From assembly GCF_009727055.1 (NCBI RefSeq), contig NC_052354.1, positions 47,378,263 to 47,442,262 on the forward strand: DNA of 64,000 nucleotides, written 5' to 3'. How positions within the stretch are numbered: position 1 is the first letter of the stretch; each line of letters begins with the position of its first letter. Under the pieces are notes generated by a model. The model did not search any database, was not told the DNA's origin, and worked only from the letters and a program-made list of their open reading frames with translations. Shown here piece after piece: positions 6,181 through 57,660 of the stretch. This DNA is from Benincasa hispida. Taxonomy: Eukaryota > Streptophyta > Magnoliopsida > Cucurbitales > Cucurbitaceae. The position numbers were made by a program, and so were the translations under genes.

Positions 6181-6361
6181 CTCGGCAGTTAACAGATGGT
6201 AGATCTCGTGACTAAAGAGTCTAGTCAGCTATTCACGTACCGTTGGTGCTTCAAGCTACAGGTCTATAAGNCTCGGCAGTTAACAGATGGTAGATCTCGT
6301 GACTAAAGAGTCTAGTCAGCTATTCACGTACCGTTGGTGCTTCAAGCTACAGGTCTATAAG
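6181..6361. other. Assembly artefact: identical 90-bp blocks either side of one N
   Basis: Positions 6,181-6,270 and 6,272-6,361 are identical over 90 bp and are separated by a single N at 6,271. This is what a scaffolder leaves when two overlapping contigs are placed end to end without merging. The real sequence most likely has one copy. Confidence 0.95.
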
Positions 6362-6566: not shown

Positions 6567-7477
6567 ACTATGGTTTAAATGTTACATATGATGTGTACTA
6601 AAATTATAGGTTATAAATATAATATGATAAGTTAATTAATATATTTATTTATAATTAAAAGAATTATATGATAATTGTTGGTAGTTTCTCCTTTAGCGGT
6701 GCGTGAAAGTGGGAGGTTATATTCAGTTTTCATAACTAAAGGATAAAATGAAAAATATTTTCAATTTGTAAAGTATTGCTTCATTAAGTGCAAGAGCAAT
6801 CGTTTAGCTAACTATAGACTGTACGAAAACCTTCTAAGCGAGAGACTGGACGATCGTGTAGGCACCTTTGACTAAACGATCATGTAAAGTTTTACTAAAC
6901 GATCGCATGCCTTAGCGAGATTCTCTAAACGATCGTGTAAACGATCACGCCTGTTTTCCTAAACGATAGTGTACTTGTTGAGTTTTACTAAACGATCAAG
7001 CACACAAGTCTATACGATAGAAAGTTCATTAAATTGGTATCAAAACCACTATGGTTTAAATGTTACATATGATGTGATATTAAAACTATAAGTTATAAAT
7101 ATAATATGATAAGTTAGTTATAATATTTATTTATAATTAAAACAATTATATGATCATTGTTGGTAGTTTCTTCTTTAGCTGTGCGTGAAAGTTGGAGGTT
7201 ATATTTAGTTTTTATAACTGAATCGCTTCATTAAGTGCATGAGCAATCGTTTAGCTAACTAGCGGCTGTACGACAACCTTCTAAGCGAGAGACTAAACGA
7301 CCGTGTAGGCGCCTTTGACTAAGCGATTGTGTAAAGTTTTACTAAACAATCGCATCCCTTAGCGAGATTCTCTAAACGATTGTGTAAACGATCACGCCTG
7401 TTTTCCTAAACGATTATGTACCTGTTGAGTTTTATTAAACGATCAAGCACACAAGCCTATACGATAGACAGTTCATT
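6567..7477 (+). repeat. Large tandem duplication with AAACGATCG motifs
   Basis: Copy 1 is about 6,567-7,030 and copy 2 about 7,048-7,477. Both run from ACTATGGTTTAAATGTTACAT to a CTATACGATAGA..GTTCATT end. Copy 2 lacks about 34 bp near GGATAAAATG. Each contains a cluster of TAAACGATCG-like decamers. The block between the copies reads TTAAATTGGTATCAAAACC, with a primer-binding-site-like core. Confidence 0.85.
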
Positions 7478-13568: not shown

Positions 13569-14628
13569 GGAGAAGATTGTTCCCAAGTGCTGACTCAGGA
13601 CTTAAGCAATGAAGTCTCACTCTCTCACTGGCCCAAGAAGAATTTTGTTTATGGTTGGACCATAAACAGAATTATTCATTAGAGGGTTAGTGGTACTTAA
13701 AGGGCAAGTGGTAGTTACAGGGGTGAAACGATAATTTGATTGAGCTGTAATTACGAACAACATGTGAAGAATTGACTTACATAATATGGTTAAATCAATG
13801 GACACATAAATATATTGCAATTCATAAGAGTGCAGGTCTTTCGTTGATTGCCCATAGTTAATGAATTGTGAATTAAAGAGTTTAATTATTAATCATGTAT
13901 CATTAGAGCTTATAACTTTATGTCCATTAGGTTCCTCTGCTAGCTCACAAACAGATTAAAACAAGGATTTCAAAGTAGAAGAAGTTTGAAGGGTTTAAAT
14001 TATTTTAAAGGAATTAATTGTATATAATACAATTAATAATGTATATAGATACAGTATAATATAAAGTTAAGTTTGAATAAGATTCAAATTGAACTATATA
14101 ATATGCAAGAATTAATCTTTGAATAAGATTCAAATATTATCTTAATATGAATTGGATTTATATTTAAACTATAATTTAAAATTAATATGAATTAGGATCT
14201 ATATTAATAGTGTAGGTTATGAGAGATATGTATATTAGAATATGATTCAAATATACATGCTATTAAATATAAGATATTTAACAAATATATTAATTAATTA
14301 ATGTACCAATTTTTTTTAATTAAGTTGGTTAATAAAATCAATTAATTAATTAACTCCATTGCAAGAATTCTCCTCACATATTAAAGTTGCATAATAGTCT
14401 GCAATTAAAGAATGGTGGTTTTTCTTGAAAAAACTGACCAATCTCTCTCACTCTCTTGCATTTAGAGTGAAATAGTTCTCTAACCAAAAAAAAAAAAAAA
14501 AGTTTTCTCTTCTCTAAACTACCAATTGGATCCCACCATCCTCCTTGTTCTAAAGAGAATAGCATAGAAGACCGGTGGTTATGTCTTGTTTGGAGCTTCA
14601 AGAACATAGTTTGTTTGATCGTGCTGAT
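13569..14628 (+). mobile_element. T-family LTR, plus strand, split by a minus-strand copy
   Basis: Begins at a GGACTTAAGCAATG block equivalent to about 3,340 in element A, then runs through TTCATTAGAGGGTTAGTGGTACTTAA, the AT-rich repeats and CATAGAAGACCGGTGG. It is interrupted at 14,629 and picks up again at 16,338 with TTCAAAGGTTTGTTACTC, the expected next part of a T-family LTR. Confidence 0.75.
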
Positions 14629-16337
14629 TGAAGGAATCGTAAATATCCGTAGTGGAAGCAGGGATCAGCCCAATTTTCAATTTTTTCACAAAATACAAAT
14701 TTTACAGAACCTAAACGAAAAATTATGCATTAATTAAAAATTTACAACATACATTTAAAGAGGAAAAGAGGGAGAAGATTACATACCTTTGAAGACAAAA
14801 AAATTCTTTACGAATCATCTTCTCCAGTCATGATCCAACAAGTAGTAAATCCATGGAGCACCACCACAAGTGAGATCTCCGTATTCTCTTTTGGGATGAA
14901 AATTTCTCAGGAGTTTGTGGGTTCTTTCCCTCCCTTTAGTTTCAAAAAATAAGTTTAAAATTAAAATTAAAATTAATTAATTTTAATTGAACTAAATATC
15001 TGTCTCTTATACACATCTAGATGTGTATAAGAGACAGGTTTAATATTGTATCAAATACAATATAACCTATAGTTTTAATTTTCTCATTAATTTGTGGTAC
15101 TTAATATAAATCACATTTATACTAAATTTAATTATATGAATCATAATTAATATTTGAATCATATTCAAATATTATTTTCTCTCAAATAAATTTTATATTA
15201 TAATGTATCAAATACATCATATTAATTATATCACATATATAATTAATTTAATTATATCACATATAATTGATTCCCTCGATTAAATTGAACAATTCAAATT
15301 AATACAAAACTAATTATCAATAATTTTTGTTGAGCTACAAATGAGACCTTATAGACCTGTAGATTGAAATTTCAATGATACTTAAATAATTAATTAAACT
15401 CTTTAGTTAAACTACCCAACATCCATTAACTGCCGCTCACTCCACTAAAAACCGACAATTGCACTCTTCGCACTACAGATATATTTCTGTGTCTATTGGA
15501 TATAACCAATCAATGGTACAATGACCCTTCACAAATTACTCGTAAACACAATTAGGCCAAAATTACCGTTTTTCCCCTATAGTTACATCTAACTTTTAAG
15601 CACCACCGATCCCTCTAATGAATAATGAGTCATAGTACAACTATGATCAAACCCCACATTGTTCAAGTCCTGTAATCAGTCCTTAAATGAGCAATTTATC
15701 TAACTAGGGAATGAATAAATTTCGTCTTATGTAGTTGTATTCTCAACTCCCTAATCAGACAAATTCCCAACATGGTAAGCTTATTAAGTCAGCGATCTGG
15801 CCAATCTCACCCATACAAATCAAGGGACCGCCTTCATAAGCAGGAGTTCAGTACTCACTTAGGATTCAGGTCATTTCTCCTATGGTCATTCTTGTGAAAT
15901 GTAAGTCTCTATTATGAACGACAATATATAATGAGACTAGTCATTTCGTAGTCCGGTCTTATACAAACTCCTTTGTATAAAATACCCCTACCCACATGTC
16001 TTTACATGAATTATAAGGACCAAATCATTTGTAGCACTTTAAAACAATTGTAACATCTACAAAGAAGACCATATTCGTAGTGTCATAAGGATAAGGTACC
16101 AATTTTTTCCATCTACTACAGACCATTTAGGTTATCACTTAAACATTATCCACATGTATGTCTCTACATACATGTTTAAGCTACAAAAGATAACCTTGAA
16201 TGTTAGTTTATTGGTTTGTGGGTTAATGCTACTAAATGTCGAATAAAACATCTCATAATTTATTAAATAAATAAAATATTTTTATATTAAAATTAAAAAC
16301 TTCAGGACCCACGAGATTTACGGCATCAACATCAACA
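14629..16337 (-). mobile_element. T-family solo-like LTR inserted in another T-family LTR
   Basis: On the minus strand it starts at 16,337 with TGTTGATGTTGATGCCGTAAA and ends at 14,629 with GATTCCTTCA, the T-family end. That gives 1,709 bp including a 38-bp artefact at 15,000-15,037. No Copia interior accompanies it. Flanks CTGAT and CTATT are only partly alike, so the target duplication is decayed or unrecognised. Same-family, opposite-orientation nesting makes this region prone to misassembly. Confidence 0.8.
15000..15037. other. Nextera mate-pair junction adapter (synthetic sequence in assembly)
   Basis: The 38 bases are the 19-bp Tn5 mosaic end CTGTCTCTTATACACATCT followed at once by its reverse complement. 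That is the circularisation junction of Nextera mate-pair libraries. This is laboratory sequence, not genome. Sequence on the two sides may come from different places. Confidence 0.97.
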
Positions 16338-16495
16338 CTATTTTTATTTAAGATTGGGATAAGATTTGAAGAAGAGTTTCTTCAAAGGTTTGTTACTCTT
16401 CTCCCTTAACAATCCTGTAAAAGCATGCTTAACTTCATAATTGTTATATATTCTCTAAAATTTTCCTGTAATAAAATTGGACAAAAAGTGATTAA
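16338..16495 (+). mobile_element. Tail of the split plus-strand T-family LTR
   Basis: Contains GAAGAGTTTCTTCAAAGGTTTGTTACTC and AAAGCATGCTTAACTTC, the 3' signature of T-family LTRs (compare 7,735-7,790 and 46,540-46,600). The last part of the LTR is missing where the minus-strand Copia remnant starts. Confidence 0.65.
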
Positions 16496-17253
16496 ATGCT
16501 CATGTTAAGGGATTCAATCCCTTCATCATACCCACAATCTTTCTCATGTGCAGATCTTGAACCTGACAACCATGAGGGGAAAAAAAAAAGACTGTTAGGC
16601 TAAGTTCACACAATTGGCCAACAGAAACAAGATTAAAGTTCAACTTAGAGACATGGTAAGTATTTGGCAAAGTTAAGGTGGATGTTGTCACAGAACCAGT
16701 ATGAAAAGTAGACATGCAATTTCCATTAGCAACATGAATGGATGGAAGTGATCAAGCAAGAGTTGAGGAATACATGAGTAAAAATTCAGAGGTCATGTGA
16801 TTGTAATAAATTGAGTCAATAAGCCAAGAATTACCTGATATAACTATAAAAACAAGAGAATTGGAGGAGATTACTTGTTTTAGTAACTCTGAAGGATAAT
16901 GAGCGAGGAGTCATACTTATAAGGAGAAGGGTCATCCAAAGAGAAGGAAACAGAAGCAATAAATGAAGAGCCAACTTTAGATAAGCTCCTTAGTTGTGTG
17001 GATTTACCTAGAGGGTATGGTGGTCGAATTGGGCAGTTATCCAAAATATGGTCCCGTTTATGGCAATACCTGCACTTAACTGTAGAACAATTACAAATTT
17101 ATGACATTGCATATTAAAATTCTTGCACAGGATAGAATCATAAAGTTTGCCCAAAATAAATGGTCAAAGAAGTAACTAAACCAAACCAAGTCAAACCGAA
17201 CCAACAATCTCGGCTCAATAATTTGAACAAAATCGGTTTGGACCAAACAAGTT
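16496..17253 (-). pseudogene. Copia remnant (element C2): gag zinc knuckle to pre-integrase
   Basis: On the minus strand, 17,095-17,000 encodes a zinc-knuckle-like CRYCHKRDHILDNCPI followed by RPPYPLG. An open stretch at 16,715-16,500 encodes STFHTGSVTTSTLTLPNTYHVSKLNFNLVSVGQLCE and CQVQDLHMRKIVG, the typical Copia segment between protease and integrase. The zinc knuckle packages element RNA. Stops break it between these points. The rest of the pol region is missing on its 3' side (below 16,496), and the hAT transposon interrupts it upstream. Confidence 0.8.
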
Positions 17254-24990: not shown

Positions 24991-26169
24991 TTACTTGAGG
25001 AGCTCCGAGATCCAACCGACATCCAGACCTCCGCCGCCGCTGTAATTGTCCTGATCACCGCAGCCGACGCCGACGGAGTTCTCCTTCCTCAATTTCTCTA
25101 ACATTTTTGCACGAAGATCTCTTCCAGATTCCACTCGCTCCATCGCCGGTTCCTCTCCGCAACCTAGGTCCCAGAAATCGAGATATCGGATACTTGGACG
25201 AGTCGGAGTATCTGGAAGGCTAGATAAACCGGATCGAGTGGATTCCTTTGGAGATCCGAAGACAGGAGATCCGACTTGAACATTCCATGAGGAAGAAGGA
25301 GATTGTACCTTACAGAATTCCTTATTGAGCTGTAAACTTCGCAGTGATGCAACCATTTCGTTGATCGAACTTGTTGCGTGAGGTCGATTTAGTGATTTAA
25401 TCATCGGTGATTGAGGTGGAGACTCGATTCGAGGAGATACTGGCGGCGATGTTCCTGGAGAAGACAAATAGGGCATTTGCTTTGCACAGGCCTCAATTGC
25501 TTGTCGGAGAGGCGATCCGTCGTATGAAGGGATGGAATTCGTACTCCGAGGGCTTTGTTGAGGCAAAACCCTAAGTTGCTCCGGCGTATGAGCGAAGAAA
25601 CAAACTCTTCTCCGGCAACTCGTCCCATCCTTGCATGGCTGAGTCCGATAACGAGCCGGATGAAGCCAGCACTCGAAAACTCCATGAGCAAACTCACACG
25701 CATCTCCTTTCATACAGCTCCCTTTCCGAAAATCCGCACACGCCGTACCTGAATAGTAATACCTCCTCGGATCTCTCCGGCGAGCCTTCTCGCCGGGATG
25801 AGCAAACGGACACTCAGTCCAGTCGTGCGATCTTCCTCTCGTACACTTCTTAATCTTGAACTCATACATTCGAAACTGATCGGAGGAGTACGCATCCACC
25901 AGAGAATCCAACTCCCGACCTGAAACATCAAAATCCGAGTCCATCTCCGCCTCATTAGACGGAAGATACCGCTTCAGCATCGCTAATGCTTCCTGCAGAT
26001 AATAAGGAGAGTATCCGCCGCTGGAACATCCGTCGCACTTGACGGAACCGCTGCTGCCACCGCTCCCCGGCGAATGACTGTACACATCCATCGCCGAATC
26101 CTCCAGAAACGTCCATGGTGGAATCTGAACCGTTGGATTCGGGCGTTTGGGCTGCTCGCCGACGATCAT
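24991..26169 (-). CDS. TZF1-like: RR-TZF CCCH tandem zinc finger protein (AtTZF1-like)
   Basis: Single-exon gene for 392 residues, intronless as is usual for this family. The N-terminus has the conserved [11 protein letters not shown] block (9-19) and [15 protein letters not shown] (59-73). The plant-specific arginine-rich segment has C109-x5-H115-x4-C120-x3-H124, then [18 protein letters not shown]. The two fingers are C144-x7-C152-x5-C158-x3-H162 and C179-x5-C185-x4-C190-x3-H194, with 16 residues between them, the standard plant RR-TZF layout. All ligands are present. The C-terminal half is Ser/Pro-rich, with [10 protein letters not shown] (274-283), the conserved [24 protein letters not shown] (341-364) and a final VGWISELLK. 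Family members bind AU-rich mRNA, shuttle between nucleus and cytoplasmic P-bodies or stress granules, and act in ABA, GA and stress responses; that role is inferred for this gene. The start is the first Met, directly at the family N-terminus. Confidence 0.96.
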
Positions 26170-26245
26170 TTTTGCCTTTTTGGCTTGCTTTGTTTTTTTC
26201 TTCTTTAGCTTCTGTTCCTCCTTGGGGGAGAAGAAGGAGATTGTT
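26170..26245 (-). other. Predicted 5' UTR of the TZF gene
   Basis: About 75 bases between the predicted transcription start and the ATG. The minus strand is CT-rich at first (CTCCTTCTTCTCCCCC) and purine-rich near the ATG (AAGAAGAAAAAAACAAAGC). No upstream ATG was seen in this stretch. The start site is inferred from the TATA position only. Confidence 0.5.
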
Positions 26246-26271
26246 GGCTAATCCACCGGCACGGTCGCTTC

Positions 26272-39578: not shown

Positions 39579-40900
39579 CTATACCCTCTGTGATACGAGC
39601 TGGGACCAATATATAAACATTTCTTCGAGTGTAATTGGAATTTTTTTACTGTGATATGGCCGTAGGTATGGGTAGCAGGCACACCCGAATGTCTTGAGAT
39701 TAAGAAAATCAAGATTAGAGCCAAATATTATGGTGACGGGTGATTTATCTTGCAATACTGTGGTAGACATGCCACTAATGAGATAGACAGCTGTGGAGAA
39801 CGCCTCCCACCAAAAGGTCAGGGGCATGGATGTCTGTGCAAGAAGCATAAGCCCAGTTTCTATGATATGTCGATGCTTGCACTTGACTCTGCCATTTTGT
39901 GCAGAGGTATGGGGACAAGACTTTCGTACTAAAATGCCTTTGGACTCACAGAGATGGTGTATTTTTCCACACTCTCTCCCATTATCTGATTGTAGTTTCT
40001 TTATTTCGGAATTGAATTGGGTTTGTATTAGTTGTATAAAGTGTTGGAATGCTGCCAATATTTCACTTTTCTGTTTCAGAGGGTATAGCCACACATATCT
40101 GCTATGATCATCCAAGAATGATATGTAATATTTGTAACCATCAGTAGATTCGATAGGAGTAGGTCCCCATACATTAGTATGTATTAATTCAAACTTACTA
40201 GAAGCCTGAGATTGAGAGTTAGGAAATGGTAAGGCACATAACTTTCCCAATTGACATGAATGACAAAATTCATTTCCTTCATTTGATTTAACTAGCAATT
40301 TACATTCTCTAATAACATAATCTAGAGTTTTTACTGATGGATGTCCTAGTCTTCTATGCCAAATAATTATTGATTCAACTACATTGATCCTAACTACTGA
40401 TAGAATTAAGGCAGTCGACTTGTTATTTTTGTACAAAGCAGATCCTCGGCTCTTGGTATTCTTTTGTAGCACATCAGCCCCTTGTAGTCTGTATAACCCT
40501 CTATCAAGCTCCCCTTTCAGTAGTGTTTTGCCTGTATCCTTGTCCTTAATTACATAACAATCGGTGTGAAATTCAACAACCACAACATTATCATGAGCTA
40601 ACTTTGATATACTAATCAGATTCTTTGCTATGTTAGGCACACATAGGACATCATTCAAAATAAATTCATTCCTTCCATCAGATAAGCAAGATTGACCAGT
40701 GTGAGACATGTGTAATTGTTCACCATTACCTACAGTGATCAGTTCATTACCTCCATACTCTGTTGGATTGTTGAGGTTGTCATAGTCTGGAGTGACATGG
40801 TTGGTAGCCCCACTGTCAATATACCAATTCGGATCTGCTAATGTCTCTGGTATGGCTATGAAGTGGTTGAAGGGTTGGGCTGACGTGAATAGGGCAGTAG
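39579..40900 (-). pseudogene. Element J: protease and integrase
   Basis: On the minus strand from 40,830: WYIDSGATNHVTP, an intact aspartic protease motif, then an open stretch 40,709-39,579. This has the LCVPNIAKNLISISKL block, the zinc-binding pre-integrase domain WHRRLGHPSVKTL..CHSCQLGK, and the integrase core. In the core the first catalytic Asp is Asn (IHTNVWGP), the second is present (LQSDNGREC), and the position of the catalytic Glu is Lys (NGRVKCKHRH). Two of three catalytic residues are therefore lost. Integrase would insert the cDNA into chromosomes. After HHIETGLMLL-like sequence the frame continues with WWEAFSTAVYLI, then degrades near 39,600. Confidence 0.93.
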
Positions 40901-40959
40901 TGTTATTATTGGGGCCGACTGACCCATGATTTCCTCTGCCTTGTCCAGTACTCTATGAG

Positions 40960-55500: not shown

Positions 55501-57246
55501 TTATGGATTAAGTAGAGATGCTCAAATAGTATGCCCTGCATTGTCACAAGTTTCCTTACGATGGAACCAAGTGTAATTCCATCACGAGTTTCTCGATGTG
55601 ATCCGAGGTTGAACATAGGGAAGTGGTGTCGGTTATTGCGGTATGTTCGTGGTATATGCGACCGGGTTCTTCAATTCTTTATAAAAGTGTGTACAGTATG
55701 TAAATTACAGTAAAATAAAAGAAAGCAGTAGAATGCGATAAAACATGGAAATACAATAAAACTAAACTAGATGTTACAAGATACAAGCTTTATGTGCAAG
55801 ATACTAGGATTAAGGCTGGTTGTGAAGATTGTGTAAAGACGTAGGATGCGACGACAAGTCTTATGAACAGATTAGAAAGAGAAAGATAAGTATTACAAAC
55901 AACACAAGTTCTTAATTGAATTGAAGGTATAAATACTGTTCCGCTCTTCTCTTGGCGTACACCTCTCAGTGATCGGCCGCGTTTCCCACATGTCTGTGGT
56001 GAAACAGAGTTTAACGTAAGGTTGTTTCCATGTTTGGAAGTACTACTCGCTCTAGGTAATGCACTCTTCTGACCTTCTCTTGATGGATCAGAATGACATC
56101 TTCACTTCTGCTCTCACAGGTGAAGATGCCGTCTAGCATGCTTTAGCTAAACGTATTTTATAACTTTAATACATATTAAGTTCTTGGTGATTCATATTGT
56201 TCATCAAGGGATTAAGAAAACATCATGAAGAACGTGACCAATGGGTGAACGAAAACAGACAGAGAATGGTAAACGAAATCTATCAAAACATTCAATATTT
56301 CTACTAAGTGTTTGATACATGATGTATGAATGAAGAAATAAAAGAAATATGGAATACAATGAAAGAGAGATAGAACAGATACAATCCGGTGCCAATGTCT
56401 TGGCACAGATTCGATGGAGATCTGCTGTTCGGATCGGATGGTTTCAATGGCAGGGAAAGCTTCCCTCTCAGGCTTGCTCCACCGGTAGTAGGGGTCCTAC
56501 ACAGAGCTTCGATCGAGTATACAACTAGTCGGATTTGAGATTTACCTCTCGGCCTTATCTCTTTCTCTTCTCGGATTTCTTCTTTTCAGCACTCAGCTCA
56601 ACCTTTTTCTCTCTAAAATCTTACAGCACTTAGCCTAGTATCAAATAGTATAATTTTCTCTGAATTCGCTAGGGTATTTATAGGAGTAGATCCTTTGACT
56701 CCGGCCTTGTGGTCCCTACTTTTGTTATGGAAATTCCAAAGATGGAGGGATATTATTTCTTCTGTTAAGCAATCGGACCGTCAAATCTGCACAACGGTTA
56801 GTTGTACACGTGTCTTAATCCTCCGCCTTTGCGTTGCTCAGTTGCATCTTTTGATCATAGGTTCACATGCGGTGTTTGTTTTTATTACCTCATGCGGTTG
56901 AAGCACAGCTCTTGGATCGACTATCGCATTACTCCGTCATTGCTGTAATCGTCTCTTCATTGTGGATTGACGGGCGCCATGTGACAGAGATACGTTGATT
57001 AGTCTCTCGTGAGCCTTGAGCGCAAGCGATGACTTGGTCTCCTACAAAACAGAGTAAAGTTCAGCTTGTCTTCCATATTTTTGGTGTTAGTGGTTGTAAT
57101 CGCAAACATTTATAATTATTGCAATACTAGGCTAATTTTCATACAATTGGTGCATAATTACTAACTTTTGGCCACAATATCTAGATAAGGTGGCATAAAT
57201 AACTTGTATTTCTACAAGTTATCACACCCCAAAATTTAGATATATG
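55501..57246 (-). mobile_element. Related LTR (element N), minus strand
   Basis: LTR of a sister family: the block TTGTCACAAGTTTCCTTACG..GTGATCCGAGGTTGAACA matches the layout of the M LTR (52,229-52,300) but is diverged. The minus-strand start TGATAACTTGTAGAAATAC is at about 57,222, preceded by a purine-rich TAAATTTTGGGGTG tract (57,223-57,240). The left edge is uncertain. Runs into an assembly gap. Confidence 0.65.
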
Positions 57247-57272
57247 NNNNNNNNNNNNNNNNNNNNNNNNNN
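57247..57272. other. Assembly gap, 26 N
   Basis: Run of N. Left and right flanks are two diverged copies of the same LTR end, so order and spacing here are unreliable. Confidence 0.99.
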
Positions 57273-57660
57273 CCTCTCGGCCTTATCTCTTTCTCTTCTC
57301 GGATTTGTTTTTATTACCTCATGCGGTCGAAGCATAGCTCTGGACCGACTATCACATTGCGCCGTTACTTCGGTAATCGTCTCTTCATGGTTGATCGACG
57401 AGCGCAATGTGACAGAGATGCGTTGATTAGTTTCTCATGAGCCTTGAGCGCAAGCGGTGATTTGGTCTCCTGCAAAATAGAGTAAAGTTTGGCTTGTGCT
57501 CCATCTTTTTGGCATTAGTGGGTGTAATTGCAAACATTTATAATTATTGTCATACTAGGTTAATTTTCATACAATTGGCGCATAATTACTAACTTTTGGT
57601 TGCAATATCTAGATAAGGTGGCATAAATAACTTGTATTTCTACAAGTTATCAGACCCCCA
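57273..57660 (-). mobile_element. Second, deleted copy of the element N LTR end
   Basis: First 34 bases (57,273-57,306) equal 56,545-56,578. The rest matches 56,876-57,246 at roughly nine in ten positions, so about 300 bp is missing relative to the left copy. Ends with ACTTGTATTTCTACAAGTTATC then the PPT-like CCCCAAATTTA. Could be a real second LTR or a misplaced contig. Confidence 0.7.

Follow-up and report, generated by a model that had tools for sequence, protein, structure and literature searches.

In library preparation by tagmentation, biotinylated junction adapters are used and are later removed by the program NxTrim, as outlined in a passage of PMC6298255. Ligation can yield the same kind of junction, and an excerpt of PMC7357533 prints, as a biotin ring adapter that circularizes sonicated fragments of ~4 kb, the very 38 letters that are the subject of the present work. 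The 19-mer from which these letters are built is given as the Tn5MErev oligo in PMC4248319, a part of which also describes that the mosaic end took the place of the wild-type ends in vitro. As to plants, PMC5381343 reports that bitter gourd was sequenced using Nextera mate-pair libraries of 2–8 kb in combination with ALLPATHS-LG, and it gives 94,148 ambiguous bases for the 285.5 Mb of that assembly, which corresponds to ~21 per 64 kb. In the literature searched, we found no paper that surveys assemblies for this 38-mer, and one may still exist. Here, we describe an exact copy of it inside a plant assembly, that is, an assembly artefact of a kind that is already known.

A mosaic-end palindrome within an AT-rich region

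The DNA analysed here is a stretch of 64 kb (the window), in which positions 15000–15037 are occupied by a Tn5 mosaic end of 19 bp and, directly after it, the reverse complement of that end, with no mismatch over the 38 bp. The first adapter half (15000–15018, plus strand) and the second (15019–15037, minus strand) each match the mosaic end exactly over 19 bp and are separated by 0 nt, which bears out the description of the 38 bp in the earlier note. When up to three mismatches were tolerated, the two adapter halves remained the only mosaic-end matches of the window. Among 100 dinucleotide shuffles, the mean was 0.03 matches, and none contained two. The adapter is also the longest perfect palindrome without spacer in the window, the runner-up having 24 as compared to 38 nt. 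Nine further technical sequences were absent from the window according to exact searches.

The adapter is to be regarded as synthetic because the identical 38-mer is present in unrelated bacteria, viral stretches and plasmids (see below). Thus, as judged from its letters, the element is a laboratory adapter stranded in the assembly rather than a piece of plant biology. The further proposal that it represents a Nextera mate-pair junction stands in so far as a synthetic circularization junction is concerned. A tagmented Nextera library, in contrast, is not provable from the letters, since the identical ring adapter is ligated to sonicated DNA in the protocol excerpt mentioned above (PMC7357533), so that tagmentation and ligation are indistinguishable at this level.

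The junction site is AT-rich yet not extreme. To the left of the adapter, the GC content is 17.5% in the adjoining 80 bp and 30% in 150 bp, and to the right it amounts to 16% in 150 bp, as compared to 34% for the whole window. The 300 nt around the junction have a GC content of 23%, and 11.7% of the 300-nt windows are lower still. The window includes 27 N in two places and no degenerate letter. A single N at position 6271 is located between two perfect 90-bp copies (6181–6270 and 6272–6361) inside another copy of the long terminal repeat (LTR) treated below, and the segment 6181–6361 represents overlapping contig ends left unmerged. The second place is a 26-N gap (57247–57272) between 300-bp repeats that are 88% alike (56913–57212 and 57341–57640). 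Both places are further scaffolding scars of the window, and the N runs suggest a scaffolded assembly.

LTR sequence on either side of the junction

The window harbours several copies of a long LTR, and the adapter is carried by one of them, copy C, which is 61–72% alike to the other copies of the window. The right flank (15038–16337, minus strand) was identified by alignment as the upstream part of copy C, its end at 16337 being placed by eye from the TG start that is common to copy B. The left flank (14629–14999, minus strand; end at 14629 placed by eye) is probably the downstream part of copy C, as suggested by weak matches to copies F, E2 and Eright. According to the earlier note, both flanks represent LTR sequence read on the minus strand. 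This holds strongly for the right flank, whose inner 600 bp reached a score of 336 against copy A2 (shuffles 29 ± 3.5, maximum 39). It holds weakly for the left flank, where matches of 27–45 nt yielded scores of 45 (F), 40 (E2) and 38 (Eright), each of which was attained by none of 100 shuffles. Out of 100 shuffles each, 4, 5 and 25 scored as high as the left flank did against A1, A2 and Eleft, respectively, and a loose alignment of this flank to copy A gave a score of 64, which is not above the shuffles (52 ± 9, maximum 79). Three control stretches were without significant match to either flank.

To compare the spacing between the flank matches, the window minus the adapter served as reference: the spacing is ~58 bp longer in copy A2 and ~48 bp shorter in copy E2. 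The LTR may therefore be colinear across the plant junction, which is weakly shown, as the left side is built on short weak matches in AT-rich sequence. On these alignments, the LTR may have lost tens of bases at the junction and not kilobases. We also considered that copy C might lie as a whole within the plus-strand copy E, in which case its ends would be neighbours, and dropped this as proof because it fails under strict scoring: the right half of E reached a score of 57 against copy A in a loose comparison (shuffles 38 ± 5, maximum 54) and gave no match when scored strictly. A target duplication for copy C inside E was sought by eye, and none was clear.

The window has additional features of note. 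Just after LTR copy B, two tandem copies of ~465 bp that are 84.5% alike are found at 6567–7477. A Copia-like pol fragment comprising the gag_pre-integrase and integrase core domains is located at 39579–40952 (minus strand). The open reading frame at 24991–26247 (minus strand) encodes a CCCH zinc-finger protein, whose best named hits in a single protein search come from melon and cucumber at 90% identity and which Pfam assigns as an AtC3H23-like zinc finger. The plant is therefore probably a cucurbit, albeit probably not a Cucumis. Bitter gourd came into consideration through its Nextera mate-pair libraries, but no feature of the window links the two.

The same 38-mer in bacterial, viral and plasmid sequences

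When genome contigs of bacteria and archaea were scanned, the exact 38-mer was detected in at least 120 bacterial stretches, and a scan of viral contigs revealed it in seven viral stretches. Together, these 127 stretches contain at least 154 sites, 147 of them bacterial, each being distinct by the 25 bases on either side. The 120 bacterial stretches originate from at least 19 genomes, as counted manually from the listing, and among the matches listed are cyanobacteria, enterococci, Streptomyces, Ideonella, Flavobacteriaceae and one chromosome titled 'Tenericutes'. The 38-mer was also present in five of 72,556 plasmid records, and the 20,395 E. coli records and 50,697 phage records searched were free of it. 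Three bacterial stretches of at most 8 kb each contain four adapter junctions apiece, indicating that some public genomes are heavily affected. Inspection of the sequences around the adapter revealed that at 18 of the 154 sites, among the matches listed, the same 17–158 bp are repeated on either side, which is the pattern expected of overlapping contig ends. A duplication of exactly 9 bp at the adapter sides occurred at one of the 154 listed sites, and N was present within 300 bp of the adapter at 53 of them.

In plasmids, the junctions could be compared with relatives that lack the adapter. The 14 places listed were read as seven sites on both strands, and one site was compared in each of four of the five plasmid records; the three sites left out include one in the Serratia record. 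For each site, 400 bases of either flank were aligned separately to one adapter-free relative. In the relatives, the flanks of p1512-KPC overlap by 24 bp, those of p15WZ-82_res are 45 bp apart, and those of pCTXM-2271 lie within 299 bp of each other. For Cronobacter p505108-MDR, the right flank falls in a copy of an IS903B-like repeat. Thus, going by these alignments, the flanks are local neighbours at three of the four plasmid junctions compared, which is a small sample. In the case of pCTXM-2271 (NZ_MF589339.1, 60889–62926), the 118 bp preceding the adapter and the 80 bp following it are unmatched in the relative, and this record, although titled complete, therefore seems to hold wrong fill. 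Of five other relatives listed for this plasmid, three have a span of 901 bp, as in the relative used, and two have 1419 bp.

Origin of the junction and rival explanations

We consider it probable that a synthetic mate-pair adapter was kept by the assembler and that it most likely closed a small local gap in an AT-rich, old LTR on the minus strand. Mechanistically, long fragments would be circularized through the palindrome, so that each junction read bears the 38-mer beside some genomic end. If left untrimmed, the 38-mer would become a word common to reads from all over the genome, connecting all such ends within the assembly graph (overlap or de Bruijn), and the assembler or gap filler could enter the adapter from one contig end and exit to another. 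As the adapter is palindromic, it would be usable by a gap filler on either strand, and the low GC content beside it makes the place suited to a gap-filler walk. At the plant site, a false overlap may have bridged two neighbouring contig ends in the middle of the minus-strand LTR, and this bridging may have swapped or added perhaps tens of bases. Both the gap-closing walk and the quantity of plant sequence lost are inferred.

The earlier note had cautioned that the flanks may stem from places kilobases apart, and had taken their LTR-like look to fit a repeat-driven collapse of mate-pair reads. In a reading close to this, the adapter would mark a long-distance mate-pair chimera, in which one fragment end fell in an LTR and the other at approximately the same spot of its partner LTR in that element or of a sister copy. 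The circularized junction read would then resemble a single LTR interrupted by 38 bp, and the repeat collapse would have dropped the internal part. The location of the site within a repeated LTR speaks for this possibility, as does the one plasmid junction whose right flank is inside the IS903B-like repeat. Moreover, a join from LTR to LTR would preserve colinearity, order and orientation. As colinearity would equally survive if both LTRs of a single element were collapsed, the repeat-collapse idea is possible. However, it requires two ends at almost the same LTR position, and the limited similarity of copy C to the other copies makes a collapse with these copies unlikely. Since the LTR seems to be colinear to within −48/+58 bp, albeit with weak matches on the left, and since most of the plasmid junctions compared are local, an origin of the flanks from kilobases apart is not favoured, and we regard the chimera as rather unlikely.

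Two further explanations invoke a genuine element instead of a stray adapter. A duplication of 9 bp at the target is the hallmark of Tn5 transposition, and as the sequence equals the recognition end of the transposase, a pair of mosaic ends could have been inserted into the plant genome from a synthetic transposon. However, a cargo is absent, there being 0 nt between the ends, and the site is without a 9-bp target duplication: the flanking nonamers agree at six of nine positions, as is the case for 4.6% of random local pairs. In addition, the recurrence of this 38-mer in unrelated genomes (≥154 sites), together with the near absence of exact 9-bp duplications there, makes a real insertion highly improbable. 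The same shared 9 bp would be expected if two adjacent tagmented fragments had been joined, and as they are missing here and so rare among the listed sites, this candidate was rejected as well. Even less credible is a natural palindrome or hairpin belonging to the LTR family. When single-stranded, the adapter does fold well (z = −9.46), but such a value is expected of any perfect palindrome. A second copy with at most three mismatches is absent despite the several LTR copies in the window, positions 14000–17000 are without Rfam match, and the letters are identical to those of a laboratory oligo, all of which argues against a natural origin.

Returning to the closure of a local gap by a retained adapter, a broader hypothesis may be put forward tentatively, namely that untrimmed mate-pair adapters serve as a hub word, by which local gaps are falsely closed in public plant and bacterial assemblies alike. 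We regard this generalization as somewhat less likely to be true than false. If it were true, small duplications, losses and wrong fill would be the consequence, and most scars would be local and correctable instead of being long-range chimeras. As to the plant site, the assembly is not to be trusted at the adapter, where annotation could call a false palindrome. Whether or not the flanks are neighbours determines whether masking is enough or the scaffold has to be broken, and the evidence leans to masking the 38 bp with the gap marked. Given the number of sites detected in stretches from bacterial genomes and in viral contigs, adapter screening is worth running widely.

How does this locus compare with the systems known so far? 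Unlike the Tn5/IS50 transposon, from whose ends the mosaic end was derived according to a passage of PMC4248319, the plant site is without transposase, cargo and 9-bp duplication. With the adapter scars in bacteria and plasmids it shares the same 38-mer and, with most of them, the lack of a 9-bp duplication, whereas the four plasmid sites, in contrast to the plant site, could be set against relatives. The closest counterpart is the junction adapter of Nextera mate-pair kits, which is also the ligated ring adapter printed in the excerpt of PMC7357533. While that adapter is met in reads, the copy described here sits in an assembly, and the two are identical at 38 of 38 bases.
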